Below are positions 12,157-43,076 of a stretch of DNA of 64,000 nt, in pieces. Numbering within the stretch: position 1 is the first letter of the stretch; every line of letters starts with the position of its first letter. The DNA lies in contig NZ_CP013074.1 of the NCBI RefSeq assembly GCF_001889305.1, positions 1,364,001 to 1,428,000 of the forward strand, read 5' to 3'. This DNA is from Dehalococcoides mccartyi. Its GTDB lineage: Bacteria > Chloroflexota > Dehalococcoidia > Dehalococcoidales > Dehalococcoidaceae. The position numbers and the translations under genes were made by a program. The notes under the pieces are model-generated. The model saw only the letters and a program-made list of their open reading frames with translations. It was not told where the DNA came from and did not search any database.

Positions 12157-12509
12157 GGGGACGCGTGGTTTCGACAGGGAAGGTAGGCTACTGGATTGCA
12201 GGCTGAGGTGCCATCCACCTCATTAAACAGGTGGCAAAAAACAACTGGCGAACGTGAACTCGTTCTTGCTGGCTAAATAAAACCAGCACATCCTGCCCGG
12301 CCCCACCTCAACGAGCCGGGTTTGGGTGCCGATTAGTTGAGGTGCCGTTTCCCCAACGCCGATGAGGGGAACGAAAGAAATATCGGCTGGTTTGGCTAAA
12401 TTAGGCCGGCAAAAGCTAGCCAGACAAGATTAAATAGACGGCTAATCCTGTAGTAGATCCTGGGTCACCTTTTCTGGACGGGGAGTTCGACCCTCCCCCG
12501 TCTCCACCA
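12157..12509 (+). ncRNA. ssrA: tmRNA (ssrA)
   Basis: The 5' end GGGGACG pairs with CGTCTCC near the 3' end to give the tRNA-like acceptor stem, followed by ACCA. The T arm (GGGAG TTCGACC CTCCC) is visible at 12481-12497. The internal reading frame at 12247-12276 encodes the degradation tag GERELVLAG followed by TAA, matching the tag known for Dehalococcoides. The sequence after 12509 belongs to an integrated element: the 3' end of ssrA is the attachment site, and it remains intact after insertion. Confidence 0.97.
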
Positions 12510-14097
12510 GAAACACGGACGAGCCGGCGGGTGAAGTACCCAAAGGCTCGTTTAAGATACGTATTTTGGATTCCTTCCTTGATACCGCCACCTGAAAAAT
12601 GGGTTTAAAGGGCGGCTTCACCTTAACTGCAATCACCGAACAGCTTTGTTTCACATCCACATACACCCCGTCCAGCATGGTCAGGAGTATCTTCCTCTGT
12701 TCAGCAAGGTTTGCCTTACCCCAGAGTACAGGCAGATTCTGGATAAGTTTCCCAGCCTGCTCGGATGCGTCATAGTCGGGTACTACCAGTGATTCCAGAC
12801 TGAGTTCCAGAAGTCTTTTCTGCCTTAAGTATTCTTCCTCAGGTATCAGACCGTCTATATAGGTCTTGGCCATACGGTGGAGTTTGCCGGTTACCTGCTC
12901 TTTTTCTTTTTTGACCCTTTCCACTTCATCCTTAAGGCTTATGATAGATAGTACTTCCTCAAGCCAGCCCGGACCAAGCTCTATAGCGGAAACAAGTTCC
13001 CTTATCTGATTATCTATTACATGGCAGCCTATAGTACCGCCATGTCCGGGGCATTCCTGTATGCTTCTTGAAGCTTTGTGCTCCCGGTAGTAGCTGTTTC
13101 CGCTTTTATAAGTCTGAGCCCACATAGGCATTCCACAATAGGCACATCTGACCAATCCTTTAAGCAGGTATTCTCTACCAGGTGAAGTAGTCAAGGTTTC
13201 AGATCTGCCCGAATTCTTCCTTAAGGCCAGTTGGACAGTATCAAATAATTCCCGGCTGATTAAGGCTTCATGGGCACCGGCTAGGATTTCATCCCGGTGG
13301 TTTATCTGCCCGGTATAGAAGGGGTTATGCAGGATATTTCTGACCGAGGAACTGGTAAATAGTCTTGGCCCTGAGACTAATTCTCCGTTGGCATCAGGTA
13401 GATTTTTGGTGTTGTGGGTACGAAATCCCTGTTCATTTAGCCAGATAGCCAGTTGGGAGAGAGTGGTTGTACCGGAGGAATAGCGCCGGAAAAGCTCGGC
13501 TGCTGCTGGCCCTTCCCTTGAGTGGATGTGAAGTCCTCCGGGGTGTTCCTTCTCGCAGCGCCTTTTCTTTTCTCCCTTGTCGCCTATCTCCCAACAGGAT
13601 TCATAGCCGAAGGGGATACAGCCATTGTGTTTGCCTTCCCTGGCTCTTTGGTCAAGTCCTTTTCTGACATGGGTACTTAAAGCTTCACTGAAATACTGGG
13701 CAAATGCCCCCAGCATCTGGGTGAAAAGGATACCGTCCGGTTTAGAATAATCCAGATTTTCAACAATAGAGACCAGCCCTATCCCGTACCTGCCCAGTAG
13801 TTTTAATGATTCCAAAGTAACGGTAAGATTCCTTGACCAGCGGTCAAGTGTATGTACAACTACAATCTCAAATTCATTTTTGGCTGCATCTTCAAGGAGT
13901 TTCCTGAAGACCGGTCGTTTATGAGTACTGTCTACATGGGCGGATTTGCCTTCTTCCCGATATATGCGTACAGCCTGCCAACCCCGGTTCTTGCAGAGCT
14001 CGGTAAAGAGTCTTTCCTGAGCATCCAGAGAGTAACCCTCAACCTGTGAAGCCGAAGAGACCCGGACATAGGCAACCGCCCGTTTAGTTTCGGCCAT
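12442..14097 (-). CDS. Large serine site-specific recombinase (copy 1)
   Basis: An integrase/excisionase of the resolvase-invertase superfamily, about 551 residues. The catalytic motif YVRVSSASQ lies near residues 10-18, with Ser14 the probable nucleophile. VVVHTLDRWSRNL is the second catalytic-domain motif. A recombinase domain follows, then a zinc ribbon (CAYCGMPM ... CPGH ... C) and a coiled-coil tail. ATG 14097 is preferred over the GTG at 14121 because an ACAGGAA SD precedes it. The last ~20 codons lie inside and beyond the ssrA 3' end, so the C-terminal tail is set by the insertion site. The copy at 39566-41263 is nearly identical up to that point. Confidence 0.93.
   Translation of the reverse strand: MAETKRAVAYVRVSSASQVEGYSLDAQERLFTELCKNRGWQAVRIYREEGKSAHVDSTHKRPVFRKLLEDAAKNEFEIVVVHTLDRWSRNLTVTLESLKLLGRYGIGLVSIVENLDYSKPDGILFTQMLGAFAQYFSEALSTHVRKGLDQRAREGKHNGCIPFGYESCWEIGDKGEKKRRCEKEHPGGLHIHSREGPAAAELFRRYSSGTTTLSQLAIWLNEQGFRTHNTKNLPDANGELVSGPRLFTSSSVRNILHNPFYTGQINHRDEILAGAHEALISRELFDTVQLALRKNSGRSETLTTSPGREYLLKGLVRCAYCGMPMWAQTYKSGNSYYREHKASRSIQECPGHGGTIGCHVIDNQIRELVSAIELGPGWLEEVLSIISLKDEVERVKKEKEQVTGKLHRMAKTYIDGLIPEEEYLRQKRLLELSLESLVVPDYDASEQAGKLIQNLPVLWGKANLAEQRKILLTMLDGVYVDVKQSCSVIAVKVKPPFKPIFQVAVSRKESKIRILNEPLGTSPAGSSVFLVETGEGRTPRPEKVTQDLLQD
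12491..12509. repeat. Attachment repeat 1 (ssrA 3' end)
   Basis: CCCTCCCCCGTCTCCACCA forms the last 19 bases of ssrA and is the junction between chromosome and segment 1. The core CTCCCCCGTCTCCACCA recurs near 30160, 35858 and 39657. The right flank here (GAAACACGGACGAGCC) is shared with repeat 4, because both adjoin a recombinase gene. Confidence 0.9.
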
Positions 14098-14320
14098 TTC
14101 CTGTTTCCCTGTTAGCTTCACGCTGAGAAACTGAAAATGCCACCTCTGCCAGAGTTGTCAGAAACTGTTCTACCATCATCTTTTGCATTACCTCAACCTC
14201 AGAAGTGGCGGTTAGTGTATACGCAGCACGTATACGTGTCAACTCATCCGATTTATCAGATTGAGTTATCTCTTCAGATACAAGCTTGCCGCCATCTTCC
14301 TGTATAGACATCTCTAACAA
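14084..14320 (-). CDS. Small module protein, unknown (copy 1)
   Basis: A 78-residue acidic, helix-rich protein that I do not recognise. It overlaps the recombinase start by 14 bases, implying translational coupling. It ends SVSQREANRETGNGRN. ATG 14311 (MSIQEDG) is an alternative start. It is conserved in the second module (41250-41486) with a handful of changes, so it is under selection as protein. A recombination directionality or accessory role is possible from position only. Confidence 0.6.
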   Translation of the reverse strand: MLEMSIQEDGGKLVSEEITQSDKSDELTRIRAAYTLTATSEVEVMQKMMVEQFLTTLAEVAFSVSQREANRETGNGRN

Positions 14321-14328
14321 TTCCTAGT

Positions 14329-14523
14329 TCATTTGCAGAAGAGTCTTTCAGATTTTTCTACTACCTGTCTCACATATTCCTGTTGAGTAATAAACCCCCT
14401 GAAATGCCTGCCATCTTTCGGGCAGACAAACATAATGAAAGGTTTACCGGATTTACGGCCGCTGGCCAGTTTCACTTCCAGCGTTTCACTGCAGACCGGG
14501 CATTTTATGGATTCAACTGCCAT
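14329..14523 (-). CDS. Small zinc-ribbon-like protein (copy 1)
   Basis: A 64-residue protein with a CPVC pair near residue 9 and a second Cys (FVCPKDGRHF) near residue 34, resembling a one-knuckle zinc ribbon; the fourth ligand could be His40 or the C-terminal Cys. The copy at 41495-41689 is identical at protein level. It is packed between the ParB-like gene (4-base gap) and the 78-residue gene (8-base gap) and is clearly part of the module operon. Function unknown. Confidence 0.65.
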   Translation of the reverse strand: MAVESIKCPVCSETLEVKLASGRKSGKPFIMFVCPKDGRHFRGFITQQEYVRQVVEKSERLFCK

Positions 14524-14527
14524 ATCT

Positions 14528-15151
14528 TTACTCCTTACCCAGATACGATTGACATAATAGATACAAAGCCTGTCCTCTTAAGGTGGGATTATCACTTTTA
14601 TTACCTCTGGCAAAGGGAATAAAACGGGTTATGGCTTTTTCTACAACTTTCTTCTGGTCACTTGTCAATTGAAAATTGAGATGACTCAATTTGGCAAGTC
14701 TGGATTGCTGCCAGTTTTGGAGCTGAACACTCAATTCTTCCTGGCCTATGGAAGCCAGAGAAGTCAGATTATCCGAGGATTCAGGCAATACCAAAAGTAC
14801 TTCTTCCTGTTTAATCTGGGACAAAATTTCCCGTAGAAGTTGAGCTCTGAGCCCCAGGTCATCCACCCCGTGGATATGATTTAGAGCCTGAGCCAACAGT
14901 TTAGCTTCAGAGTCATTTAATTCAAGTACAATACAAGGCACAGTTTGTATCTTAAGTTCAACCAGTACCTTTAATCTCTGGTTACCGGATAAGACTTCAA
15001 AATATCCATCTTTAGATCTGACCACCAGATTTTCAACCAATCCATATCTTTTAATACTCTGCTTCAATTTCCCAAGTGTCTTCTCATCCAGTTGGTTCGG
15101 GTTCCAGACTGCTTCCCTGAGAATCCCCAAGGGCAAATTAGTTATTTCCAT
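14528..15151 (-). CDS. ParB-like N-terminal domain protein (copy 1)
   Basis: A 207-residue protein whose first ~100 residues match the ParB/Spo0J N-terminal (CTPase-type) fold: LDEKTLGKLKQSIKRYGLVENLVVRSKDGYFEVLSGNQRLKVLVEL, with the GNQR motif near residues 56-59. The rest is helical and unlike plasmid ParB. It overlaps the Mom-like gene by 14 bases. Small ParB-like proteins also occur beside DNA-modification genes in phages, so a link to the Mom-like neighbour is plausible. There is no parA nearby, which argues against plasmid partition. Confidence 0.75.
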   Translation of the reverse strand: MEITNLPLGILREAVWNPNQLDEKTLGKLKQSIKRYGLVENLVVRSKDGYFEVLSGNQRLKVLVELKIQTVPCIVLELNDSEAKLLAQALNHIHGVDDLGLRAQLLREILSQIKQEEVLLVLPESSDNLTSLASIGQEELSVQLQNWQQSRLAKLSHLNFQLTSDQKKVVEKAITRFIPFARGNKSDNPTLRGQALYLLCQSYLGKE

Positions 15152-15851
15152 TATTCCCCTCCTTGATAGGGTAGGGTAATACCGCAGATTTCAGGTATCC
15201 CCGCCATTTCGGATCCAGAAAATATAAATATCTGTGCTTGGCAGATTGTTTAATCGCATTAATTTTTATCCCCTGTTTTTTCAGGTAACCCTGATCACGG
15301 CTGCCCAGAAAATTATTTAAAGAGCGTCCGTGCCTGAGTCGGCCATCTCCCAAATCATACAAAGGCATCGCCGATGATAGTCCGGTATAAAGCCAGCCGG
15401 TAGCCTGATAGATAATTCCCAGATGCCCTGCCGATGGATCGCTGTAGGATATCAGAAACTTTAAATCTGTATGACGTTTTAAGTACCTGAATATCACCCC
15501 TAAAACCCTTGATTCAGCGTTTTTAGGTAAATCATCTGATAACCAAAATCTGGTAAGGGTTAAACAATCCTGAGGCTCTGCCCCATCCACCAGTCGGTAA
15601 GCCAAGGCTGGACCGGCACCCAGGGTAATGGCACCGGTCAGCCGGTTATCCAACATAACCCCAAAACAAAGCATCGTGCCTGCCGGAAATGAATGCAGAT
15701 AGTGCTCCCGTTCCAGAATCCGGGCAGCCGCTTTACGGGGAATTGGGCAAACCAAGAGGTTATGGAGCGCCGCGCTGGGATTTAAACCCGCTCCTGTATC
15801 CCGGCAGGATACCATGCTACTCATCACACCCGCGGCGCAATTTACATCCAT
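15138..15851 (-). CDS. Mom-like GNAT-fold DNA modification protein (copy 1)
   Basis: A 237-residue protein resembling the phage Mu Mom family, GNAT-fold enzymes that modify adenine in DNA and so protect it from restriction. The pattern seen is LEREHYLHSFPAG, then LTLTRFWLSDDLPKNAESRVLGVIFRYL, then SYSDPSAGHLGIIYQATGWLYTG. This assignment is from memory of the family and not from a search. An SD AAGGAAGG precedes the ATG at 15851. It overlaps the ParB-like gene. The second copy (42304-43017) has five or so substitutions. If it is active, the element could mark its own DNA during transfer. Confidence 0.65.
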   Translation of the reverse strand: MDVNCAAGVMSSMVSCRDTGAGLNPSAALHNLLVCPIPRKAAARILEREHYLHSFPAGTMLCFGVMLDNRLTGAITLGAGPALAYRLVDGAEPQDCLTLTRFWLSDDLPKNAESRVLGVIFRYLKRHTDLKFLISYSDPSAGHLGIIYQATGWLYTGLSSAMPLYDLGDGRLRHGRSLNNFLGSRDQGYLKKQGIKINAIKQSAKHRYLYFLDPKWRGYLKSAVLPYPIKEGNNGNN

Positions 15852-15910
15852 AAAAACCTTCCTTACCTTAAGATCCCAAAACCATTTGATTTCCTAAATT
15901 ATCTATCTCT

Positions 15911-16078
15911 CTATTCATCATCATTTTCCAGGTCATAAGTTTCTTCCTCTTCTCTGCGCCGTGCAATTCCTCTGGCTTAGGATACAATAGCCTGGTAAAG
16001 AGAATCACCCAGCAAGATTTCATCAGCCCCAATATCCAACTGGTACAGCTCACCCAATAATTGAGCTAAAGTCTTCAT
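15911..16078 (-). pseudogene. Small module gene broken by an internal stop (copy 1)
   Basis: The frame starts at ATG 16078 (MKTLAQLLGELYQLDIG) and meets TAA at 15977-15979 after 33 codons. In the second module the same gene (43077-43244) stays open for 55 codons and ends ARRREEEETYDPENDDE; here the matching downstream codons are still in frame up to a TAG at 15911. So this copy has lost its acidic tail. The protein family is unknown. Confidence 0.6.
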
Positions 16079-16107
16079 TTTCGCATTCCTTTCCTGTGAT
16101 ATAATTT

Positions 16108-16148
16108 TGCCAATACCTTTTGGCATCAATAACAGTATGTCCTATAAT
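16108..16148 (+). promoter_or_regulatory. Promoter with overlapping TGCCAA/TTGGCA inverted repeat
   Basis: TTGGCA (16120-16125), a 17-base spacer and TATAAT (16143-16148) form a near-consensus sigma-70 promoter for the gene at 16183. TGCCAA at 16108-16113 is the inverted partner of the -35 TTGGCA, giving an operator-like dyad. Both elements are kept in module copy 2, where the arms extend to 7 bp. Confidence 0.75.
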
Positions 16149-16182
16149 TCATGAGATGTAATTGCGTCATAGGGAGGTATCT

Positions 16183-17319
16183 ATGACAACGGATAAAATA
16201 CAATGGGCGTTAAATACCTTATTCCCCAAGGGTGAGGAGAATGGAGGGCCAGCGTATTTAATATTAGACAAATATCAACCCGCAATAACAAGTTTACGCA
16301 AAAAAGATCCTGCTTTAGCAAGAAAAGTTGAACGTACGCTTAAACTAATATTTCCAGAGTACTTTCCTCGGAGAAAATATATCAAATGGGACGATACTTA
16401 TCGTGCGACAAAGGCTAGAATAAATCTTTTACCTCATAACCCATATCTTAGAAAAGATATCTCGGATATTAGAAATGCACTTGGTCTTCCTGATGAGCAA
16501 ATTAAGATACCATTTGAACAAAAAATATATTCTGATAAATTACAATTATTGATGAAACCGAAAAAAAACCAGGAAAAAGTATCTCAAGAAGAGGCCCAAA
16601 GGATAATCGGAGTTGAAGTACTATTGGAGTGGTTAAAAGTATTTCATGAAGTCGAGACCAAACATCAAATAGCTGATAGTGATTTACCCCTAGATATCAG
16701 AAAGATGGCGATCAAATCTGCAGAGAAAACCTTCAATACTACGAATTTCCCTGTCTGGTTGCAAGAGCACCTTACATCAACAGTAAATGATGAAACTTCT
16801 TTTATAGATAAAGTTATAGACCTACTAATCAAACGACACAGACTGCCGTTTGATTTATATTGGAAGTATGCGATTCAACAATTAAAATACTATCTATTAA
16901 CTAATAATCCAGAGTGGGTCACAAACTTGGGATATAAAAACATTATAATTTCACCAACATTTCATAAGGGTAGTTACGTAACTCATTTTAATGCCACTAT
17001 CACAAATATCGATGAGACCTTCACTTTTGAAGATTGGACCAAGTTATGGAATAAGTATATAAAGCCAGAAAATAATGCACTACTGGAAGCAAGTGGTAGT
17101 ATACCTCAAGGGCGCCTCCCTGTCGGAGTTGATTTTAATAAATTAGAGAAACGGATTAAATTTTTCGAACCCATGATTAATAACAATTTAAGTCCACAGG
17201 AGATCGCGAATGATTGTCCAAAATACTTAGATTTAAACGATGACGAGCAGAATTTAGAGCAAGAGTCGATTGTTGATTCAATGAAAAAGTTGAAGACACT
17301 TCTAGAACCAAATGATTAG
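16183..17319 (+). CDS. Conserved module protein of unknown function (copy 1)
   Basis: A 378-residue soluble protein, rich in Lys, Asn and Ile, from AT-rich DNA unlike the neighbouring recombinase genes. I recognise no domain; the sequence is helix-rich with no membrane segment or clear catalytic motif. ATG 16183 is chosen because GGGAGGT lies 8 bases before it; the frame is open from 16162. The copy at 43334-44470 differs by only three residues. It is divergent from the module operon under a strong promoter with an operator-like dyad. It may be a regulator or defence component; no function is claimed. Confidence 0.7.
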   Translation: MTTDKIQWALNTLFPKGEENGGPAYLILDKYQPAITSLRKKDPALARKVERTLKLIFPEYFPRRKYIKWDDTYRATKARINLLPHNPYLRKDISDIRNALGLPDEQIKIPFEQKIYSDKLQLLMKPKKNQEKVSQEEAQRIIGVEVLLEWLKVFHEVETKHQIADSDLPLDIRKMAIKSAEKTFNTTNFPVWLQEHLTSTVNDETSFIDKVIDLLIKRHRLPFDLYWKYAIQQLKYYLLTNNPEWVTNLGYKNIIISPTFHKGSYVTHFNATITNIDETFTFEDWTKLWNKYIKPENNALLEASGSIPQGRLPVGVDFNKLEKRIKFFEPMINNNLSPQEIANDCPKYLDLNDDEQNLEQESIVDSMKKLKTLLEPND

Positions 17320-17482
17320 AACGATATGAACTGGATCCTTAAGAGTTAACACTAGAATAAAATACGCTGATTATTTAAAACAAATCGGCTTTTAATGGTA
17401 TTAAAATTATCAGTAAAATACGAACATTTTGCAGGTAAATTTGTCATATTTATCATATTTTATAACACACCTTTGATGTAAA

Positions 17483-17692
17483 CTATGGCGATGATTTTTG
17501 GGATTTTACCCAGTTAATCAGATCCTCTTTTATGAACACCCGCTTATTCCCCAGCTTATATGAAGGCAGGCCTTTCTTAATCAGATTATAAATTGTCTGG
17601 TGACTAATACCCAGAAACTCCTGAGCCTCTGAAAAAGATAAAAAACCGCACTCAATCTTCGTTTCTGACTTCTCTATTTTCTTTCTAACCAT
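17483..17692 (-). CDS. Helix-turn-helix excisionase-like protein (copy 1)
   Basis: A 69-residue protein with a MerR/excisionase-type helix-turn-helix: GFLSFSEAQEFLGISHQTIYNLIKKGLPSYKLGNKRVFIKEDLINWVKSQK. The order of helix, turn, recognition helix and wing ending in a LINWV helix is typical of excisionase-family DNA-binding proteins. The copy at 44634-44843 is identical in protein. It is divergent from the lipoprotein gene and is a good candidate for the recombination directionality factor or a local regulator. Confidence 0.8.
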   Translation of the reverse strand: MVRKKIEKSETKIECGFLSFSEAQEFLGISHQTIYNLIKKGLPSYKLGNKRVFIKEDLINWVKSQKSSP

Positions 17693-17768
17693 TGTAATAC
17701 TCCATTTATTTATGGAATATTACACATCCGTATTGTTTTAGGCACATATTGATTATATTTGATTATTA

Positions 17769-17797
17769 TTGACACCTTTGCGTTTATGTTATATCAT
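17769..17797 (+). promoter_or_regulatory. Sigma-70 promoter of the lipoprotein gene
   Basis: TTGACA (17769-17774), a 17-base spacer and TATCAT (17792-17797) lie 28 bases before the lipoprotein start. The same elements occur in module copy 2 at 44920-44948. Confidence 0.75.
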
Positions 17798-17824
17798 CTC
17801 TTTATCCATTTACGGGAGGATCTA

Positions 17825-18310
17825 ATGCGAAAACTAATTATCCCATTAGCTGTTATTTTTACCTTGCTGCTTTCCATTTGCCTTACCGGCTGCAATACCA
17901 ATATCTTTGACCCCTCAGGTAACAACCCGGGATTATTTAATCGCCCTCTGGTAACCAAGATCTCATATTTTATAGACAATACATTTGATATTTCCGCAGG
18001 TGATTATTATAAATTCGAGTTTACGATTTCTTCTGATATGCTTAATACCCGGGTCGGAGGCTCATTCTACGCTTCCGGTGGATCAGGTAATGATATCCGG
18101 ATGCTTATTCTGGATAGTACCGATTACGTTAACTGGGCAAACGGTCACTTTGTAACACCTTGTTATGACTCAGGCAAACTGACCACTCATTCATTTATGT
18201 TGAATCTTACCGCTGGCACTTACTATCTGGTTTTAGACAATACCTTCTCCTTCATTTCTTCCAAGCAGGTTAAAATCGACGCTGGGATGGAATGGCAGGA
18301 ATACGAATAA
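17825..18310 (+). CDS. Putative lipoprotein of unknown function (copy 1)
   Basis: A 161-residue exported protein. The signal sequence reads MRKLIIPLAVIFTLLLSICL and the lipobox LTGC gives lipid attachment at Cys24 or so. The mature part is rich in Ser, Asp and aromatic residues and probably beta-structured (YYKFEFTISSDM, GTYYLVLDNTFSF), resembling small secreted beta-sandwich domains. ATG 17825 has a GGGAGG SD 5 bases upstream; the longer frame from 17759 would include the promoter. It is followed by a small membrane protein gene. The copy is at 44976-45461. Confidence 0.75.
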   Translation: MRKLIIPLAVIFTLLLSICLTGCNTNIFDPSGNNPGLFNRPLVTKISYFIDNTFDISAGDYYKFEFTISSDMLNTRVGGSFYASGGSGNDIRMLILDSTDYVNWANGHFVTPCYDSGKLTTHSFMLNLTAGTYYLVLDNTFSFISSKQVKIDAGMEWQEYE

Positions 18311-18327
18311 ACTTAAGGAGCATCTAC

Positions 18328-18540
18328 ATGGCACTTGGCTTCAGCCTTACAATAATCGGTTTAATCCTATTCGCAACCTGTTATGCAGCCTTTGGAATAG
18401 ACCTCAGCCAACTGGGCATCAGAATCGGTCCTATTGAGTACCAAATACTTCAATGGGTAATGATAATAGGAGGAGGGCTGTTCCTATTAGGATTGGTCAG
18501 GATTATTGCTAAATCTATTGAACATAATAAAAACAGTTAG
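18328..18540 (+). CDS. Small two-helix membrane protein (copy 1)
   Basis: A 70-residue protein with two hydrophobic segments (FSLTIIGLILFATCYAAFGI and WVMIIGGGLFLLGLVRII). An AAGGAG SD lies before ATG 18328. It starts 17 bases after the lipoprotein gene and is conserved in copy 2 (45479-45700), which has a different C-terminal end because homology between the modules stops within the last codons. Function unknown. Confidence 0.65.
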   Translation: MALGFSLTIIGLILFATCYAAFGIDLSQLGIRIGPIEYQILQWVMIIGGGLFLLGLVRIIAKSIEHNKNS

Positions 18541-18700: not shown

Positions 18701-21301
18701 TTACCGGACATTGTATTTCCTTCCTCGTAGTTTATACGGTTCAACCCCTCCTTCCAGATGGTCAACCACCTGTCTAGCGACTAGTTCTAGGTCGATTGCT
18801 CCGGCACAGACAATTTCTCCAGAAGTAGCCGTCCCCTTCAATATGTGGAACATATCGGAGTCTGAGGAAACTGCAACATTCGAATTGTGGGTCGTGATTA
18901 CAAATTGCCGTTGGTCTTTCCTTTGCCGCAGACGCTGAACTATGTCGTGATAAACGGTAGCCACGTCGAGCGCATCTTCTGGCTGGTCAATGATGATAGG
19001 CATTGACCCTTCAGACAAAGCGATGAGCAGGAGAGCGGTACACTTTTGTCCCACCGATAACTGGGTAAGTGGATAATATTGCTCATCTTCTTTTCGGTAT
19101 TGGATGTTGGGAACGTCCTCGGGTAAACATTCATACGGGATGGACAACAGCTGACGCAATAGCGTTTCATTCCCTATTATCGAATCTACAATCTTTGAGG
19201 AAGCCGCGGCGGTCAGTAATCCTTTTGTTTCTAACTCCGTCTTGTCTTTTCTTAATACAGCAGCCACAAACTCCCTCGGCATCATATTCTTCACAAGTTG
19301 TTCCTTAAATTTCTGACCTATGGATAGTCCACGGGTGATTTCGGTTAACCCTTCTATAAACGCTTGACGGTTACCATTTTGTTCTAACGTCAATTGAAGT
19401 CGTTCATCGCTTTTCTTGGTTAGATCTTCATAAATATTCGACCTAGCTACGAAAAGGTCCTGTCTGGCTTTATCCAATGTATCCAACAAAGTTTCTCTTT
19501 TTACACGGTGAGTCTCAAAGAAAGATGCTTTCAGATTGAACTCATCTCGCTGGGAGACTATATTATCTAGGTTCTCAGCTAGCCCTTTGCGCTGTTTCGA
19601 CAGAGCTTCTTGCTGGCCACCGGCTGTCTTCAGGAAGGCTTCGAATTTTTTATCCCATTCGCCCTTTCTTTTGTCAAATTCAGAGCGATCCTTTTGGGCC
19701 AATAGCAAAGCATCATCGAAAGCTTTCAATGATACCTTGACATTTGATACCAAGCTATCAGCCGCCGCCGATACTTTGTCTCGATAACCTTTCAGATCAG
19801 TATCTTGTTCTCCGTCCGGTAGTCCAGGAACCGCCGGCACCGACTCCGGGTTAACGCTTTGTTCAATTTGTTGCCGAAGTTTTTGGGAAGCCGCATTGAC
19901 CAAATTTATCAAAGCGACTTTATTATTCCAATCCTTTCCTTCTTTGTACATCGGATCTGCAAGCATATTATCCAACTCTTTGATTTGAGCGTTGATAGTA
20001 GCAATGCTCGCATCAAGTTCTTGAACCTTGTCCTTCGCGAGCAGAGAACTTATATACTCCTCAACATTCGATGCAAGATTATCTTGCGCTTCCTGAATTG
20101 GCCGGCGTAATGTATCAAGGTCAACTAACCTATCGATCGAACGTAATTGGATGCCGGTATCACGAGAAATATCGATTACTTCATTTTGGCTATATGCGAG
20201 TATCGGGAATACTTTCGTTATATCTCCTTGGAAGGCACTCCCATCAGATGAATCAGTAACTTGAATTGGATTAGTATCACCGTCGAATTGCCTTTCGACT
20301 ATATAATTAATACCTGAGGCAGTTTTGACATGGATGGTGATTTTACCCCCGAGACCTAGTTGATTTTCGAGTTTACTCTTTAAATCGGTTTGAATATCGT
20401 GAACATATGAAGGTTGATTGAGTGCAAACCTAACAAACTCCACAACAAGGGACTTGCCGACTCCTTTTCCGCCTAGGATTGCGTTCATACCGGGATGAAA
20501 CTTGGCACGCAGACCATTGAAAAAGCCTTTGTCGACATGTAAATCCAGAACCATCGGGCATTGGACGTTGGGCGGGTCGATAATTCTGATCCGTGTCTGT
20601 GGGTCATAGAAGCACTGCCGAAGTGCACCAATCGACATTGTTCCAATCTTAAAGTACGAGCTCTTACTGCCTATTTCACGCAGTGAATGACTATCTGAGC
20701 ACTTAATGCAGGCGAGTTTTCTCTGGTAATTAGGATCTTCACCGTCGAAAAAAGCCATAGTCTCGTCTTTTGTAATCTCAGCACCTAGCAAATTTTGATT
20801 TCTAATTATGCTAATCCTCGCTTGCCCCTTCATTTCCTTGACAACCCCTGAGGATGAATCGCAATGAGCTAATAATGCAACTCCCTCAGCTTCGGTTATC
20901 TTGTTAATGACTTGGTTAACGTCACCTGTAGCAAGTGCGTCTTTCCGTCCCCTCTTTTCTTCGGTAATGTCAATCTGCGCTAGAAAATCATGAACATGTG
21001 CCATACCTTTTGAAGGATCGAAAATAGCCAGGACGTGGACGTTTCGTTCGCCGCCCATCACTGTTATCTCGACACCTGGAAAGACGACTATGCCACTTCC
21101 ACGAGCTGCGGTCTTCAATGAGTCGATCCAAATACCGGTATTGTGGTCCGTAACAGCCAGAGCATCTAATCCGTGTTTCTTTGCCCTAGAGATTATCATT
21201 TCAGGCGTTGCTCCGCGCTCTTGATAGTCATCACCTGATCCTGGACTGTGAAAGTGAAGATCTATTTTCTTCCACCTGAGACCTTGAAAATCGGTAGTCA
21301 T
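18701..21301 (-). CDS. PHP-domain phosphoesterase fused to ABC/SMC-type ATPase (TrlF-like)
   Basis: An 866-residue two-part protein. Residues 1-250 form a PHP metal-dependent phosphoesterase with HFH at 16-18, TDHN at 51-54, AHCDSS near 145 and DSH at 203-205 as metal ligands. Residues ~255-866 form an SMC/Rad50-like ATPase: Walker A GGKGVGKS at 277-284, a long coiled coil, the signature LSVGQK, Walker B IIIDQPEDALD near 770 and the ITTHN switch. It resembles proteins annotated as TrlF-family AAA-like ATPases. An SD GGAGGG precedes ATG 21301. It ends a three-gene leftward operon with a QueC-like and a QatB-like gene. A defence nuclease or phosphodiesterase driven by ATP is inferred. Confidence 0.8.
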   Translation of the reverse strand: MTTDFQGLRWKKIDLHFHSPGSGDDYQERGATPEMIISRAKKHGLDALAVTDHNTGIWIDSLKTAARGSGIVVFPGVEITVMGGERNVHVLAIFDPSKGMAHVHDFLAQIDITEEKRGRKDALATGDVNQVINKITEAEGVALLAHCDSSSGVVKEMKGQARISIIRNQNLLGAEITKDETMAFFDGEDPNYQRKLACIKCSDSHSLREIGSKSSYFKIGTMSIGALRQCFYDPQTRIRIIDPPNVQCPMVLDLHVDKGFFNGLRAKFHPGMNAILGGKGVGKSLVVEFVRFALNQPSYVHDIQTDLKSKLENQLGLGGKITIHVKTASGINYIVERQFDGDTNPIQVTDSSDGSAFQGDITKVFPILAYSQNEVIDISRDTGIQLRSIDRLVDLDTLRRPIQEAQDNLASNVEEYISSLLAKDKVQELDASIATINAQIKELDNMLADPMYKEGKDWNNKVALINLVNAASQKLRQQIEQSVNPESVPAVPGLPDGEQDTDLKGYRDKVSAAADSLVSNVKVSLKAFDDALLLAQKDRSEFDKRKGEWDKKFEAFLKTAGGQQEALSKQRKGLAENLDNIVSQRDEFNLKASFFETHRVKRETLLDTLDKARQDLFVARSNIYEDLTKKSDERLQLTLEQNGNRQAFIEGLTEITRGLSIGQKFKEQLVKNMMPREFVAAVLRKDKTELETKGLLTAAASSKIVDSIIGNETLLRQLLSIPYECLPEDVPNIQYRKEDEQYYPLTQLSVGQKCTALLLIALSEGSMPIIIDQPEDALDVATVYHDIVQRLRQRKDQRQFVITTHNSNVAVSSDSDMFHILKGTATSGEIVCAGAIDLELVARQVVDHLEGGVEPYKLRGRKYNVR

Positions 21302-21370
21302 TATCCAGCCCTCCTACAAAGCCGCCCGATGCTACTTGATTTAAAGGTAATCTTTCATCAATGAATTTGC

Positions 21371-23287
21371 CTATCTAAAAATCCTTACCGCACACTTTCC
21401 TGTTTTCTCGAAATCGCTGATGAATCTGCCGTCGTCCTTAATCGCTCTATCGTGGTCATACACAACAAAAAGCATCTTATAATCATTGCTTCCATACTTG
21501 GTGATATCCGCAGCAATGCCCTCGGAGGCTTTGCTTGGTGTTGTTTGTCTTCGGATATATTTCGTTTCGATCACGAGATCCAACTCACTAAATGAGTGGT
21601 CAGGTATCGTTGTAGCTAATGCGAACCTTATGCCAGGATGCTCTCGTTCGTAATCGTTCCGATTGGCGTTAATAACCGATTGAATCTTGTCATTAAGGTC
21701 AGCCTCGTTTAAAGGCAGATTCCGTTGAAAAAGGGTTGGAATTGCTTTGTCTAGTTGGTCACAAATTGTTTCGATTAATCTTATTACGGGTTCCTTCAAA
21801 TATGTTTGTTCACCCATGATGGCTAATAGCGAATCTTTGGGTCTTTCTTGATACGGTTCATCGTGCAACCTTTGAATTCTCTTCAGCGCCTTATTAATCT
21901 CTAACCCATGTCTGTTGCACAACTCCCAGATATTTGTAATCGCAGTCTCTTCGTCCAAAGAGGGGTACAATCGAGAAACGGGTTCACCAAGATATGTAAG
22001 TTCATTGAGATAATCATAAGAAAAACTCTCTAATGTCGATTCAGCGAACAGTCGTGCTTGCCGGATGTAGTCAATAAGGCAAGTCTTTTCTTCAGCGTTG
22101 TTTGGTTCTTTTATCAAATCATGGTTGTATATACCAGACTCATCGACTGTCTCAAGCTCAGATGCATAGCTCGCTAATCGCCTATCTACACATTGAAAGC
22201 ATCCTCCGCAATGACTTGCCTGCTTCCGATTTAGAAAAGTCTTGCTACAAGACACAGCGCTTGGTATTAAATTTTCGCGGTTGTGCGTACTCAGTTCTCT
22301 AAAAATATCTGATTTTGTTTTGAATAGGAATGGTGTTTCGATTTGAACCTTTGAACCGTGTACCAGCGAGAAAAAGTCTTGAAGCAAGGAGAGAGTTCTG
22401 GGATGCGTAGTCCTGCTAGTCCTGGCATTAATCCCATCTTGCCTTCTTGCGAAATTAAGGGAGGTAACACCATTTTCGTGCACATAAAACCGAGGATCAT
22501 GTTGAGAACTCGCAATGGCATAGGCAATTGACGTGTACAGAAAGGCTCGGGTACGCTGCGTCTCTTCGACCGCTTTGTTAAGAGTTGAAACCAAGCTACA
22601 CTTAAATTGGTAGTGCCTGACACGATCAGAATAAGTGTCTTTTAGTGCTTGAAATAGCCCGTTCTGTGTTTTTATAGTCCCTGGCTGGCTTTGGTGACTA
22701 ACAAGGCAGATAACGTCTTTGGACTCTTCGAGTAAATCTACAGCTCCTGCAAGAGAGTCCAACCCTCCAGAAAAGAGCATCACTCTCAAATTCCCATCTT
22801 CGGGCAAAACGATACCCGGGTCATCGAACATGCTTGTAGGAGGAGTGGAATGCCCGGCTTGAAACGTGAATTCGTATTCTTTGTCGCCAGTCATGAAAAC
22901 CAGTGCTTCAGCCAATTTGTGTTGAACTGAGGCATCGTTCCAAAAACTGTAGTCGCGAACTTTCACAATAAAATGAAGTCGTCTAGCCCAGTTGTGATAT
23001 TCAACGGCGTCTCGGGGGCCACGAGATATCAACCTGTCGGCCGCGTAAATATATCCTGCTATTTCCAGTAAATCTAAAATCCGGTCGGGCAAACGGAATG
23101 CTTGGCGAACGAACCGTGGCAACTGAATGGTGATATTCTTCTCTTGCATGCCAACACGATATTCGAGTGACAGTGCTGGGTTAGTTAGAGACTCAGTCGG
23201 AGAGGCACCATTGCATGTAACAACTCTTGGGGCTGACTCTGTCGAGCCGGAACCTTCAAAGATAGTTTCAAGGGAAGGGTCTGTCAT
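21371..23287 (-). CDS. QueC-like PP-loop enzyme fused to a PD-(D/E)XK nuclease domain
   Basis: A 638-residue protein. The PP-loop ATP pyrophosphatase motif SGGLDS lies at residues 173-178 and the QueC-type zinc ligands at Cys348, 360, 363 and 366 (HCGGCFQC), so the core resembles 7-cyano-7-deazaguanine synthase. Canonical QueC is about 230 residues; here ~160 residues precede it and ~270 follow. The C-terminus carries a nuclease-like ELDLVIETKYIRR (D...ExK). QueC-like proteins occur in defence systems such as Qat (QatC) and type IV CBASS. The ATG overlaps the upstream QatB-like gene by 4 bases. A role in queuosine synthesis is unlikely, since no other que gene is near. Confidence 0.8.
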   Translation of the reverse strand: MTDPSLETIFEGSGSTESAPRVVTCNGASPTESLTNPALSLEYRVGMQEKNITIQLPRFVRQAFRLPDRILDLLEIAGYIYAADRLISRGPRDAVEYHNWARRLHFIVKVRDYSFWNDASVQHKLAEALVFMTGDKEYEFTFQAGHSTPPTSMFDDPGIVLPEDGNLRVMLFSGGLDSLAGAVDLLEESKDVICLVSHQSQPGTIKTQNGLFQALKDTYSDRVRHYQFKCSLVSTLNKAVEETQRTRAFLYTSIAYAIASSQHDPRFYVHENGVTSLNFARRQDGINARTSRTTHPRTLSLLQDFFSLVHGSKVQIETPFLFKTKSDIFRELSTHNRENLIPSAVSCSKTFLNRKQASHCGGCFQCVDRRLASYASELETVDESGIYNHDLIKEPNNAEEKTCLIDYIRQARLFAESTLESFSYDYLNELTYLGEPVSRLYPSLDEETAITNIWELCNRHGLEINKALKRIQRLHDEPYQERPKDSLLAIMGEQTYLKEPVIRLIETICDQLDKAIPTLFQRNLPLNEADLNDKIQSVINANRNDYEREHPGIRFALATTIPDHSFSELDLVIETKYIRRQTTPSKASEGIAADITKYGSNDYKMLFVVYDHDRAIKDDGRFISDFEKTGKCAVRIFR

Positions 23288-24063
23288 TTTGCCTCTTCCC
23301 TCCGGAGTTCCTCTCTCAGTTTACCAAACGCTATTCTTAAGAAAGTGCGGATTTCGTAGTCTGAGGGAACTTCTCGATCAGCATGCTTGTTAAACCATCC
23401 GGCAGCGAATGATTGTGTGATCTTGGCCGTCTCGAACGCATGTTGGGATGCGATATTGATGTGCTCGTTCAGGCGTTTTCTTAGCGCCTCCCTTTCCTGC
23501 AGCGTCTTAACTGAGGATGACAAAGCTCTTTCGAGGAAGTAATTCAGATATCGTTCGGTTGTTTTAGCAAAGAACAGGCGCGATATTTCGCAGAAACCGA
23601 CACCACCTCCGGTACCTCGCCAAGCTTCCACAGAGTTATTATCGGTGTCAAACATTCTCAGTTGCTGGCTATTCTTGCCATGCCAGATTGAGACTGCATC
23701 GACCGCAGCAGCCCGAGCAATCTCGCCGTATTCCAATGAACCTATTGTAGCTTCAACATATTTGTGAAGGGCTTTTGCGATGAAATAAGGAGAAGCATTT
23801 GTACCGATGTCTACATTTGAATCCGCCAAGAAGCTAAGTGGATTCGCAAACTGTGAAGAGACAGCCAGAGTAACCAAGAATTTAAAAGAAGCAATGACTC
23901 CAGAATCCCCTTCGACCTCATTTAAGCGATCCCGGACATTTTCAATGGTTTGGCTTGCAACGATCTTGACCTTGTCTTCTGCAAGGTCTGAACTCATCAG
24001 TTCATCGACAATGCGAATCCAAGGTTTGGTCTTTGGTAGAATACCAAGCCGTTCGTGCCCCAT
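23284..24063 (-). CDS. QatB-like protein, first gene of the PHP-ATPase/QueC operon
   Basis: A 259-residue soluble, helix-rich protein. The part GTGGGVGFCEISRLFFAKTTERYLNYFLERALSS and the ending AKITQSFAAGWFNKH recall QatB, the accessory protein that works with QueC-like QatC in Qat defence; the similarity is from memory and weak. No catalytic motif is seen. It shares an ATGA overlap with the QueC-like gene. In Qat, QatB is the target of QatC; the same pairing is inferred here. The alternative is an unrelated helical partner. Confidence 0.5.
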   Translation of the reverse strand: MGHERLGILPKTKPWIRIVDELMSSDLAEDKVKIVASQTIENVRDRLNEVEGDSGVIASFKFLVTLAVSSQFANPLSFLADSNVDIGTNASPYFIAKALHKYVEATIGSLEYGEIARAAAVDAVSIWHGKNSQQLRMFDTDNNSVEAWRGTGGGVGFCEISRLFFAKTTERYLNYFLERALSSSVKTLQEREALRKRLNEHINIASQHAFETAKITQSFAAGWFNKHADREVPSDYEIRTFLRIAFGKLREELRREEAK

Positions 24064-27225: not shown

Positions 27226-27689
27226 ATTATACAAGCCAGCTTATCGAAATAGCTCAAAACATCGCTAATAATACCCCAGATTTCTATAGGATACTTGGAC
27301 CAGGAAGAGGAGATAAGTCCACCGGCGCATTTATGAAAGAGTTGCGCACCAAATCAATAGAGTTATTCGGTGAGGATTTCTCAGAGCAGACTATATGCGG
27401 AGAAAATAAACTGGCGGTTGATTTTTATTTCCCAAGTGAAGCAACTATTGTTGAGATCGCCTTGACCATCCGAAATCCCAACTCTGAATTCCATAAAGAT
27501 ATTCTCAAAGCTTTGATAAGCAAAAGAAAGGGGAAAGCCGTAGAAAAACTAGTTTTCATAGCCAAACCCGGAGCCGTTAAGCAACATCAGAAACCTGCTT
27601 CTAAATCAATCGTAAAATTAGTAAACGAATTTGGTATTTCAATTGTCATAATAGAACTGGTTGATAATACTAATACTGGAACAATTTGA
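27222..27689 (+). CDS. PD-(D/E)XK nuclease-like protein 2
   Basis: A 155-residue protein with a probable restriction-endonuclease-like fold: Asp67 in AVDFYFP followed by ATIVEIALTI with Glu78; the usual Lys is not at the standard place, so activity is uncertain. The later strand VEKLVFIAKPGAVKQ fits the fold. It overlaps the membrane-protein gene upstream by 4 bases. Fold assignment is a pattern reading only. Confidence 0.45.
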   Translation: MNYTSQLIEIAQNIANNTPDFYRILGPGRGDKSTGAFMKELRTKSIELFGEDFSEQTICGENKLAVDFYFPSEATIVEIALTIRNPNSEFHKDILKALISKRKGKAVEKLVFIAKPGAVKQHQKPASKSIVKLVNEFGISIVIIELVDNTNTGTI

Positions 27690-27724
27690 ATTATCTAAAC
27701 AATCTTAAAGATACGGAGAATTAT

Positions 27725-28228
27725 ATGAAGGATGACGAAATATTAGCCGGATTTCTAACTGCTTATAACTGCTTCTTAGAAACAGAAAGAGATCTTTTAA
27801 GTGTAAATGCGAATGAGCGATCCTTAACACACAAGCTAGCCGAACATATCCAGCAAACTTTTCCTGAATATAATGTTGATTGTGAGTATAATCGCCGTGG
27901 ATATGGTAACAACTCACAAAAGAAAGTCGTACAAGATGACGGGATTAAGAAACGAGTATTCCCTGATATAGTAGTTCATAAAAGGAAGACCGATCATTCC
28001 AATTTGCTAGTCATAGAGGCAAAGAAACATTCAAATACGGATACCGAACAAGATGACTTTAAACTGAAGCGTTTTACTAAAACAGATGGTGATTATCATT
28101 ACCAACTAGGGCTATTACTTATACTGAACTTAAACAGTATTGAAGAAAGTACGGCAACAAAATACAAGGATGGTGAAGTAGTACAACCCAGCAGTATCCC
28201 CATTAGAAACTTGAACGGTAATAGCTAA
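27725..28228 (+). CDS. PD-(D/E)XK nuclease-like protein 3
   Basis: A 167-residue protein with a clear D...ExK core: FPDIVVHKR (Asp81) then LLVIEAKK (Glu98, Lys100), followed by YHYQLGLLLILNL, the usual helix-strand continuation. ATG 27725 with a CGGAG SD is preferred to a TTG at 27686 that overlaps the previous stop. It is very like small stand-alone nucleases found in defence islands. It is followed 18 bases later by another nuclease-like gene. Confidence 0.6.
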   Translation: MKDDEILAGFLTAYNCFLETERDLLSVNANERSLTHKLAEHIQQTFPEYNVDCEYNRRGYGNNSQKKVVQDDGIKKRVFPDIVVHKRKTDHSNLLVIEAKKHSNTDTEQDDFKLKRFTKTDGDYHYQLGLLLILNLNSIEESTATKYKDGEVVQPSSIPIRNLNGNS

Positions 28229-30068: not shown

Positions 30069-30159
30069 TCTCCTTCGGCTAGATCTGAGATTACCTCCAA
30101 AGATTAACCAATGTATTAGTTCACTATGAATTCCAGCCCCTGTTCAAACCACAGCCAAC

Positions 30160-30178
30160 CCTCCCCCGTCTCCACCAA
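30160..30178. repeat. Attachment repeat 2
   Basis: CCCTCCCCCGTCTCCACCA again, identical to the ssrA end. The left flank CAGCCAA matches repeat 4, and the right flank AAGCTAA matches repeat 3. The left flank is therefore the far-end arm of a segment, and the right flank the shared border of segments 2 and 3. Confidence 0.9.
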
Positions 30179-39565: not shown

Positions 39566-41263
39566 TTAAATACCCCGCAACTTAAACTGTTTAAATTTTA
39601 TTGAGGGAATACGACTAGCCAAACTCCAGTCCCCGTGTGTTTCTGACCGCAGCCAACCCTCCCCCGTCTCCACCAGAAACACGGACGAGCCGGCGGGTGA
39701 AGTACCCAAAGGCTCGTTTAAGATACGTATTTTGGATTCCTTCTTTGATACCGCCACCTGAAAAATGGGTTTAAAGGGCGGTTTTACCTTAACTGCAATC
39801 ACCGAGCGGCTCTGTTTCACATCCACATACACCCCGTCCAGCATGGTTAAAAGTATCTTCCTCTGTTCAGCAAGGTTTGCCTTGCTCCAGAGTACAGGCA
39901 GATTCTGGATAAGTTTCCCAGCCTGCTCGGATGCATCATAATCAGGTACAACCAGTGATTCCAGACTGAGTTCCAGAAGTCTTTTCTGCCTTAAGTATTC
40001 TTCCTCAGGTATCAGACCATCTATATAGGTCTTGGCCATGCGGTGGAGCTTACCTGTTACCTGCTCTTTTTCTTTTTTAACTCTTTCCACTTCATCCTTA
40101 AGGCTTATGATGGAGAGTACCTCTTCAAGCCAGCCCGGACCAAGCTCTATAGCGGAAACAAGTTCCCTTATCTGTTTATCTATTACATGGCAGGCTATAG
40201 TACCGCCATGTCCGGGGCATTCCTGTATGCTTCTTGAAGCCTGATGCTCCCGATAGTAGCTGTTTCCGCTTTTATAAGTTTGTGCCCACATAGGCATTCC
40301 GCAATAGGCACACCTGACCAGTCCTTTAAGCATGTATTCTCTACCAGGTGAAGTAGTCAAGGTTTCAGATCTGCCCGAATTCTTTTTTAAGGCTAGTTGG
40401 ACAGTATCAAATAATTCCCGGCTGATTAAGGCTTCATGGGCACCGGTTAGGATTTCATCCCGGTGGTTTATCTGCCCGGTATAGAAGGGGTTATGCAGGA
40501 TATTTCTGACTGAGGAACTGGTAAATAATCTTGGCCCTGAAACCAATTCTCCGTTGGCATCAGGTAGATTTTTGGTATTGCGGGTACGAAATCCCTGTTC
40601 ATTTAGCCAGATAGCCAGTTGGGAGAGAGTGGTTGTACCAGAGGAATAGCGCCGGAAAAGCTCGGCTACGGCTGGTCCTTCCCTTGAGTGAATGTGAAGT
40701 CCCCCGGGGTGTTCCTTCTCGCAGCGCCTTTTCTTTTCTCCTTTGTCGCCTATCTCCCAACAGGATTCATAGCCGAATGGGATACAGCCATTGTGTTTGC
40801 CTTCCCTAGCTCTTTGGTCAAGTCCTTTTCTGACATGGGTACTTAAGGCTTCACTGAAATACTGGGCAAATGCCCCCAGCATCTGGGTGAAAAGGATACC
40901 ATCCGGTTTAGAATAATCCAGATTTTCAACAATAGAGACCAGCCCTATCCCGTACCTGCCCAGTAGTTTTAGTGATTCCAGAGTAACGGTAAGATTCCTC
41001 GACCAGCGGTCAAGTGTATGTACAACTACAATCTCAAATTCATTTTTGGCTGCATCTTCCAGGAGTTTCCTGAAGACCGGTCGTTTATGAATACTGTCTA
41101 CATGGGCGGATTTGCCTTCTTCCCGATATATACGTACAGCCTGCCAACCCCGGTTCTTGCAGAGCTCGGTAAATAGCCTTTCCTGGGCATCCAGAGAGTA
41201 ACCCTCAACCTGTGAAGCCGAAGAGACCCGGACATAGGCAACCGCCCGTTTAGTTTCGACCAT
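39566..41263 (-). CDS. Large serine site-specific recombinase (copy 2)
   Basis: Near-identical to the recombinase at 12442-14097: the same YVRVSSASQ catalytic motif, LDRWSRNL, zinc ribbon CAYCGMPM and coiled coil, with scattered substitutions. ATG 41263 is chosen for the same SD. The two proteins agree up to SSVFLVETGEG and then differ: this copy ends in a longer tail (WLRSETHGDWSLAS...) because the final codons lie beyond attachment repeat 4, in the DNA of segment 3. It is probably active, since the catalytic region is intact. Confidence 0.92.
   Translation of the reverse strand: MVETKRAVAYVRVSSASQVEGYSLDAQERLFTELCKNRGWQAVRIYREEGKSAHVDSIHKRPVFRKLLEDAAKNEFEIVVVHTLDRWSRNLTVTLESLKLLGRYGIGLVSIVENLDYSKPDGILFTQMLGAFAQYFSEALSTHVRKGLDQRAREGKHNGCIPFGYESCWEIGDKGEKKRRCEKEHPGGLHIHSREGPAVAELFRRYSSGTTTLSQLAIWLNEQGFRTRNTKNLPDANGELVSGPRLFTSSSVRNILHNPFYTGQINHRDEILTGAHEALISRELFDTVQLALKKNSGRSETLTTSPGREYMLKGLVRCAYCGMPMWAQTYKSGNSYYREHQASRSIQECPGHGGTIACHVIDKQIRELVSAIELGPGWLEEVLSIISLKDEVERVKKEKEQVTGKLHRMAKTYIDGLIPEEEYLRQKRLLELSLESLVVPDYDASEQAGKLIQNLPVLWSKANLAEQRKILLTMLDGVYVDVKQSRSVIAVKVKPPFKPIFQVAVSKKESKIRILNEPLGTSPAGSSVFLVETGEGWLRSETHGDWSLASRIPSIKFKQFKLRGI
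39657..39675. repeat. Attachment repeat 4
   Basis: CCCTCCCCCGTCTCCACCA within the 3' part of the second recombinase gene. The left flank (CAGCCAA) matches repeat 2 and the right flank (GAAACACGGACGAGCC) matches repeat 1. It is the junction between the far end of segment 3 and the recombinase end of segment 4. Confidence 0.9.
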
Positions 41264-41486
41264 TTCCTGTTTCCCTGTTAGCTTCACGCTGAGAAACTGA
41301 AAATGCCACCTCTGCCAGAGTTGTCAGAAACTGTTCTACCATCATCTTTTGCATTACCTCAACCTCAGAAGTGGCGGTTAGTGTATACGCAGCACGTATA
41401 CGTGTCAACTCATCCGATTTATCGGATCGAGTTATCCCTTCAGATGCAAGCTTGCCGCCATCTTCCTGTATAGACATCTCTAACAA
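41250..41486 (-). CDS. Small module protein, unknown (copy 2)
   Basis: A 78-residue protein almost identical to 14084-14320 (Leu/Val, Glu/Gly and Gln/Arg-type changes near the N-terminus only). It overlaps the recombinase start by 14 bases. The protein-level conservation between modules supports a real gene; the function is unknown. Confidence 0.6.
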   Translation of the reverse strand: MLEMSIQEDGGKLASEGITRSDKSDELTRIRAAYTLTATSEVEVMQKMMVEQFLTTLAEVAFSVSQREANRETGNGRN

Positions 41487-41494
41487 TTCCTAAT

Positions 41495-41689
41495 TCATTT
41501 GCAGAAGAGTCTTTCAGATTTTTCTACTACCTGTCTCACATATTCTTGTTGAGTAATAAATCCCCTGAAATGCCTGCCATCTTTCGGGCAGACAAACATA
41601 ATGAAAGGTTTACCGGATTTACGGCCGCTGGCCAGTTTCACCTCCAGCGTTTCACTGCAGACCGGGCATTTTATGGATTCGACTGCCAT
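41495..41689 (-). CDS. Small zinc-ribbon-like protein (copy 2)
   Basis: A 64-residue protein identical in sequence to 14329-14523, although the DNA differs at several silent sites, which shows selection on the protein. CPVC and FVCPKDGRHF are the probable metal-binding parts. It is part of the module operon. Confidence 0.65.
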   Translation of the reverse strand: MAVESIKCPVCSETLEVKLASGRKSGKPFIMFVCPKDGRHFRGFITQQEYVRQVVEKSERLFCK

Positions 41690-41693
41690 ATCT

Positions 41694-42317
41694 TTACTCC
41701 TTATCCAAATACGATTGACATAATAGATACAAAGCCTGTCCTCTTAGAGTGGGATTATCACTTTTATTACCTCTGGCAAAGGGAATAAACCGGGTTATGG
41801 CTTCTTCTACAACTTTCTTCTGGTCATTTGTCAATTGAAAATTGAGATGACTCAATTTGGTAAGTCTGGATTGCTGCCAGTTTTGGAGCTGAACACTCAA
41901 TTCTTCCTGGCCTATGGAAGCCAGAGAAGTCAGATTATCCGAGGATTCAGGTAATACCAAAAGTACTTCTTCCTGTTTAATCTGGGACAAAATTTCCCGT
42001 AGAAGTTGAGCTCTGAGCCCCAGGTCATCCACCCCGTGGATATGATTTAGAGCCTGAGTCAACAGTTTAGCTTCAGAGTCATTTAATTCAAGTACAATAC
42101 AAGGCACAGTTTGTATCTTAAGTTCAACCAGTACCTTTAATCTCTGGTTGCCGGATAAGACTTCAAAATACCCATCTTTAGATCTGACCACCAGATTTTC
42201 AACCAGTCCATATCTTTTAATGCTCTGTTTCAATTTCTCAAGTGTCTTCTCATCCAGTTGGTTCGGGTTCCAGACCGCTTCCCTGAGAATCTCCAAGGGC
42301 AAATTAGTTGTTTCCAC
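41694..42317 (-). CDS. ParB-like N-terminal domain protein (copy 2)
   Basis: A 207-residue counterpart of 14528-15151 with about ten substitutions (for example MEITNLPLGIL against METTNLPLEIL). The GNQR motif is kept. It overlaps the Mom-like gene by 14 bases, as in copy 1, which again suggests a functional pair. Confidence 0.75.
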   Translation of the reverse strand: METTNLPLEILREAVWNPNQLDEKTLEKLKQSIKRYGLVENLVVRSKDGYFEVLSGNQRLKVLVELKIQTVPCIVLELNDSEAKLLTQALNHIHGVDDLGLRAQLLREILSQIKQEEVLLVLPESSDNLTSLASIGQEELSVQLQNWQQSRLTKLSHLNFQLTNDQKKVVEEAITRFIPFARGNKSDNPTLRGQALYLLCQSYLDKE

Positions 42318-43017: not shown

Positions 43018-43076
43018 AAAAACCTTCCTTGCCTTAAGATCCCAAAACCATTTGGTTCCCCAAATTATCTATCTCT

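Follow-up and report, generated by a model that had tools for sequence, protein, structure and literature searches.

In type IV cyclic oligonucleotide-based anti-phage signaling systems (CBASS), the QueC-family enzyme Cap9 provides the precedent for conjugating 7-carboxy-7-deazaguanine (CDG) to the N-terminal glycine of a partner protein, in that case a CD-NTase (PMC11996544). The Qat anti-phage system contains a related enzyme, QatC, whose motifs have been defined (PMC13329287) and in which T278 and T280 stand in for the CDG-binding Tyr and Asp of QueC and Cap9 (PMC13279940). The partner of QatC, QatB, begins with MGTS, and this start, the stretch containing Pro16 and Trp18, and Gly2 are all needed for defense; the same study leaves open the function of QatC, what QatC attaches, and how QatBC stops phage (PMC13279940). 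Here we describe a locus in a 64,000-nucleotide stretch of the Dehalococcoides mccartyi genome (contig NZ_CP013074.1, positions 1,364,001 to 1,428,000; the window, below), in which a 259-residue protein starting with MGH (the partner) is encoded next to a 638-residue QatC-like enzyme with a fused C-terminal nuclease. The pair looks like an apparently undescribed relative of Qat (we found no description of it in the literature searched, with preprints and most subscription journals outside our coverage), and we consider it rather likely that these two genes are an anti-phage system akin to the QatBC core, in which an exchangeable effector is fused to the enzyme.

Results

The recurring unit is a pair of genes

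Three leftward open reading frames (ORFs), of 866, 638 and 259 residues, lie exactly where a first-pass annotation of the window had placed three tightly packed genes. The partner gene (23284-24063, minus strand) overlaps the enzyme gene (21371-23287, minus strand) by 4 bp (23284-23287), which is also the commonest arrangement among relatives; the 866-residue gene (18701-21301, minus strand) lies outside this two-gene unit, set off from the enzyme gene by 69 bp. The first homologues of the pair came from three Chloroflexota genomes and a Leptospira noguchii plasmid, and a scan with the partner alignment (one genome per species) gave 61 loci, to which viral contigs added two, for a total of 63, and the pair occurs in about 17 bacterial phyla; a scan of viral contigs with the 638-residue protein alone gave no matches. 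A QatC-like gene lies directly 3' of the MGH gene in 61 of the 63 loci (in a broken frame or fragmentary in three of these), the exceptions being one locus that stops at a contig edge and one orphan with no QatC-like gene within 2.2 kb. No third gene is recurrent among the 52 clean pairs. Their main recurring neighbors are tyrosine integrases (9 loci), helix-turn-helix (HTH) proteins (8) and serine recombinases (7), some further recurrences being confined to close Rhodobacterales relatives and consisting partly of wrong-strand ORFs, and few pairs have a same-strand gene within 60 bp, whether upstream (5/47) or downstream (8/47). The recurring unit is two genes, not three.

The 866-residue protein has the PHP-plus-ATPase identity first assigned to it (PF02811 with an SMC/AAA ATPase, resembling Ppl), and is a full-length member of the TrlF family (NF045780, TrlF_fam_ATP; 415.9 bits against a cut-off of 350). 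The first-pass annotation had placed it in a three-gene defense system, taking over from QatA and QatD as ATPase and metal-hydrolase, and the adjacency and shared direction of the three genes, with only the 69-bp gap before the TrlF gene, would fit such a system, as would the links of TrlF/Ppl proteins to defense in their own right. The neighborhoods, seen from both sides, led us to reject it: no TrlF relative (phmmer, E<1e-4) occurs in the fetched flanks, up to 8 kb, of the 63 pair loci, and the pair is absent beside 12 other Chloroflexota TrlF relatives (flanks of about 1.5 kb or less). With no third gene recurring, and with the TrlF protein scoring above the threshold for the stand-alone family to which it belongs, a three-gene system is highly improbable; of the trio, only the pair recurs.

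The enzyme is predicted to have the QatC fold

The 638-residue protein matches QatC over residues 52-401 (NF041925, 3.8e-59; PADLOC PDLC02214, 4.8e-52), although its NF041925 score of 200.6 bits is under the equivalog cut-off of 280. In a Foldseek search the top match was QatC (9y01_B, E 1.1e-15, TM score by target 0.73), followed by Bacillus subtilis QueC, and on this modeled structure the enzyme has the QatC fold. The QatC motifs are present with slight shifts in spacing (D84-x4-R89...W100-x-R102, SGGLDS, R245-x-R247, ENG, HP, P319-x4-TK and CGxCxxC..R). The ATP pyrophosphate loop SGGLDS (residues 173-178; 22754-22771, minus strand) is kept as SGG.DS in all 53 enzyme homologues, each of which also matches PADLOC QatC. 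Alignment to Pseudomonas aeruginosa QatC identifies SRTTHP (residues 291-296; 22400-22417, minus strand) as the equivalent of the T278/T280 nucleobase pocket, and S/T-x-S/T-x-HP is kept in 52 of the 53. The zinc site (C347 plus C360-x2-C363-x2-C366; 22190-22249, minus strand), which includes the HCGGCFQC around residues 360-366, is invariant in the enzyme alignment and corresponds to the zinc cysteines of QatC. The protein first read as QueC-like from its SGGLDS and HCGGCFQC can thus be specified as QatC-type by fold and motifs. A canonical QueC of the queuosine pathway was ruled out by these motifs, by the lack of queE in the genome by two models and by the siting of the PTPS gene in a folate operon.

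In the enzyme tree, the MGH-linked proteins make up one side of a branch (support 100/98), apart from 14 canonical QatC proteins and a third group. Distances between partners track those between enzyme cores (r=0.90 overall, 0.81 and 0.89 in two subclades; 0/2000 permutations each), which we read as joint inheritance rather than contact, because shared descent alone contributes to the correlation. A third QatC context was seen in five loci, where a QatC of about 450 residues is preceded by a partner of 185-230 residues, with no N-terminal MG where the partner was seen; an XRE-type HTH gene follows in two of the five (L005 and L097), and four of the five enzymes form a separate clade (100/99).

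The partner has an invariant N-terminal glycine motif

The partner has no significant match in the PADLOC 2.0.0, Pfam or NCBIfam libraries. Its AlphaFold2 model is composed entirely of helices (predicted local distance difference test score [pLDDT] 85), with a disordered N-terminus (pLDDT <50 for residues 1-10); the plasmid sequence was left out of the alignments for structure prediction. The 53 aligned partner sequences, the homologues being 24-50% identical to the window protein, share the consensus start MGHxRxGxLPxxxxW, in which M1, G2, H3, R5 and W15 are identical in all 53; in the window, codons 1-15 read M-G-H-E-R-L-G-I-L-P-K-T-K-P-W (24019-24063, minus strand). Because one of our two search patterns covered the MGH stretch, we rechecked this conservation in the 38 homologues whose sole match was to the other, C-terminal pattern and which were thus recruited without the N-terminal stretch: M1, G2, H3, R5, L9 and W15 are present in 38/38, and the mean top-residue frequency is 0.73 over residues 1-15 versus 0.48 over the remainder. 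Start codons were set at the MGH string, which is missing in five truncated, chimeric or fragmentary loci; in several relatives the codon for residue 1 is GTG or TTG, consistent with the Met of MGH being the true start. The canonical QatB proteins that we collected begin with MGTS, and at the level of sequence the MGH start appears to parallel it.

The parallel does not extend to a recognizable fold. A Foldseek search with the partner model returned no match at E<0.001, and none of its top 50 matches was a QatB chain, with the QatB-QatC structures 9y01 and 9y02 present in the library searched. Profile comparison of the partner with QatB gave a weak match (Prob 31%, pairwise E 5e-4, score 33.8, versus 17.7 for the reversed control and 18.4 for the best of 40 shuffled controls), a hint of distant kinship and nothing beyond; against PDB sequences the partner profile retrieved only designed helical proteins and chance-level matches. 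What stands of the partner's earlier description as QatB-like is therefore its helical character, its place in the gene order, the N-terminal glycine motif and the close coupling to a qatC-like gene; a QatB fold is not supported.

The enzyme carries exchangeable C-terminal modules

Residues 527-638 of the enzyme (21374-21709, minus strand) form a DpnII/MboI-type PD-(D/E)xK nuclease domain (PF18742 over residues 527-634, 1.2e-10), and the 'D...ExK' seen at first pass is P562-D563...E574-x-K576. A nuclease of this type follows the core and a helical linker in 22 of the 53 enzyme homologues (the Pfam count is likewise 22), and E549, D563, E574 and K576 are kept in 22/22, bearing out the earlier suggestion that the QueC-like enzyme had gained a nuclease. 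Two homologues, L020 and L046, instead carry a TIR module (PF13676, 1.9e-14 and 9e-16; PADLOC ThsB, 4.8e-64 and 9.2e-52, respectively). They fall on separate branches, each sister to nuclease-bearing members, indicating at least two exchanges of module. Another homologue (L038) ends in a PDC-M36A-like domain, and in nine Alphaproteobacteria our reading of the sequence suggests a winged-helix-like module.

Host-made CDG is unlikely to serve generally as the co-substrate

The source genome (a 1.52-Mb chromosome, 99.93% complete) encodes TGT, FolE and a PTPS protein sited in a folP-folK operon, and we found in it no canonical QueC (the other match being MnmA) and, by two models, no QueE. Both QueC and QueE also went unrecognized in the isolate hosts Aestuariivita, Sneathiella, Maritimibacter, Fluviibacterium and Flavimaricola; two Ruegeria hosts, in contrast, score high for both proteins, showing the models to be effective in that group. 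The CDG pathway is present in many other hosts of the pair. Given the hosts in which neither protein is recognizable, CDG made by the host is, on sequence grounds, an improbable general co-substrate, barring scavenging of CDG or a QueE that escaped recognition, and the deazapurine modification of the partner suggested at first pass is not supported. A CDG-independent reading is consistent with the reported failure to reconstitute QatC activity in vitro (PMC13279940). Separately, in four Chloroflexota hosts that encode canonical QatC together with an MGTS-type QatB, canonical QueC is missing as well, and their QueE searches gave no match or weak generic radical-SAM matches, an observation that bears on the QatC reaction itself.

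Genomic setting

The pair is located in an island at ssrA, of a type known in Dehalococcoides (PMC3146451). The mobile island described at first pass was borne out by a serine recombinase (12442-14121) adjoining ssrA and by repeats of the ssrA 3' end at 30154 and 39652. The tmRNA (ssrA) 3' end is present three times (12486-12509, 30154-30177 and 39652-39675), marking tandem islands, in which two recombinase modules (12490-18530 and 39656-45681; 96.2% identical over 6043 bp) have different cargo behind them. Each module includes a Mom-family DNA modification protein (PF25680, 8e-56; 15138-15851, with its copy at 42304-43017) adjoined by a ParB-like protein. A 180-residue protein in the same island as the pair (27686-28228) resembles PD-Lambda-3_A (PADLOC, 7e-24) and may be further defense cargo; the window also contains a reductive dehalogenase gene.

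Elsewhere, 7 of 10 large neighbors of the pair that we scanned matched defense families (type IIG restriction-modification, ThsA/LmuA-like, DISARM DrmD, HmaC and Mokosh-like). In eight loci from Rhodobacterales and Sneathiella the pair sits in a compact mobile cassette, with a tyrosine integrase directly after it; most of these loci also have an HTH gene of MerR/excisionase-like type on the opposite strand.

Discussion

Proposed mechanism and alternatives

In the mechanism that we propose for an anti-phage role of the pair, the partner would lose its initiator Met, exposing Gly2 on a short flexible tail, and this tail would dock in the QatC-type ATP-pyrophosphatase site of the enzyme. The enzyme would then activate a carboxylate co-substrate with ATP and join it to Gly2, as Cap9 does to CD-NTases; the proposal leaves the co-substrate open, and it may not be CDG. 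Infection would alter the state of the resulting complex (by modification, demodification or release), and the altered complex would activate the enzyme's fused effector, in the window a DpnII/MboI-type nuclease cutting DNA and in some relatives a TIR domain depleting NAD+ or signaling. Several points weigh against this proposal. We found no published experiment on the MGH/QatC-like pair, and modification of QatB by QatC was not shown in vitro (PMC13279940). The confident model of the partner found no QatB fold at E<0.001, and its flexible tail is about 14 residues long versus 30-90 in QatB. About half of the homologues carry C-terminal modules with no assigned effector function, some of them winged-helix-like, so a fused effector is not proven for every homologue. 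The ten neighbors scanned for defense families were picked by size and not at random.

Three other accounts of the pair can be set beside this one. The enzyme might act exactly as Cap9 does, conjugating CDG to Gly2 of the partner, as the Cap9/CD-NTase precedent and the N-terminal glycine motif of the partner would favor; we consider this doubtful, because the enzyme, like QatC, has Ser/Thr-x-Ser/Thr in place of the CDG-binding Tyr and Asp, and because neither the near-complete source genome nor several isolate hosts have a recognizable QueE or canonical QueC, with scavenged CDG or a missed QueE still conceivable. A toxin-antitoxin-like arrangement, in which the MGH protein merely inhibits the fused nuclease or TIR domain and the QueC domain serves only as a scaffold, would suit a small helical partner, overlapping genes and effector domains of toxic type, but is quite improbable: the catalytic SGG.DS is invariant, the remaining QatC motifs are near-universal, and the strictest constraint in the partner falls on its extreme N-terminus, including Gly2. 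The union of QueC homology and a DpnII/MboI-type nuclease in one protein also recalls restriction-modification, with the enzyme producing a deazapurine as a mark on host DNA and the nuclease cutting DNA that lacks the mark. This we regard as extremely improbable, given that the locus has no transglycosylase (DpdA-like) gene, the nuclease is swapped for TIR or other modules in relatives, the host has no recognizable QueE or canonical QueC, the motifs are QatC-type, and E. coli QatC fails to produce preQ0 when queC is mutated (PMC13329287).

Returning to the conjugation mechanism, a broader form of it, which we offer tentatively, is that a QatC-type enzyme marks the N-terminal Gly of a partner of unrelated fold with a co-substrate other than CDG and itself bears interchangeable killing modules (nuclease, TIR and others), the whole being a widespread, undescribed two-gene immune family. 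If that is true, QueC-type N-terminal conjugation would be a modular immune switch of general use that does not depend on queuosine metabolism. The pair could also reveal what QatC-type enzymes do: just two genes encode the partner, the enzyme and the killing domain and, with the output fused to the enzyme, activity should be readable directly as DNA cutting or NAD+ loss.

Comparison with known systems

Type IV CBASS resembles the pair in having a QueC-family enzyme proposed to act on a partner's N-terminal glycine, but no library match identifies the partner here as a CD-NTase, the enzyme pocket is of the QatC S/T-x-S/T type and not that of Cap9 or QueC, and the locus has no Cap10-like TGT. 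The DpnII/MboI restriction nucleases (PF18742) share with the C-terminal domain of the 638-residue protein the conserved PD...ExK, which is here fused to a QatC-type enzyme, with no methyltransferase recognized among the adjacent genes examined.

The pair is not a member of qatABCD. It lacks the KAP ATPase QatA (its neighbor in the window is TrlF/SMC-like, and no ATPase gene is recurrent near the 52 pairs), and no TatD nuclease QatD was found in the three genes, their immediate neighbors in the window or the recurrent neighbor families. The partner starts with MGH and not MGTS, has a short tail and does not match the QatB fold significantly, and the enzyme bears its own C-terminal module and belongs to a clade separate from canonical QatC (100/98). 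The 'same logic as Qat' once proposed for this locus accordingly holds for the QatC-type enzyme, the nuclease and a helical partner paralleling QatB, and is not supported for the PHP-ATPase role and the QatB fold. With the QatB-QatC core the pair shares the QatC fold, SGGxDS, the S/T-x-S/T-x-HP pocket and the zinc site in the enzyme; a QueC-family gene placed after the gene for a helical partner; an N-terminal MG with Pro and Trp soon after; and genes that overlap or abut. The pair probably works like QatBC.

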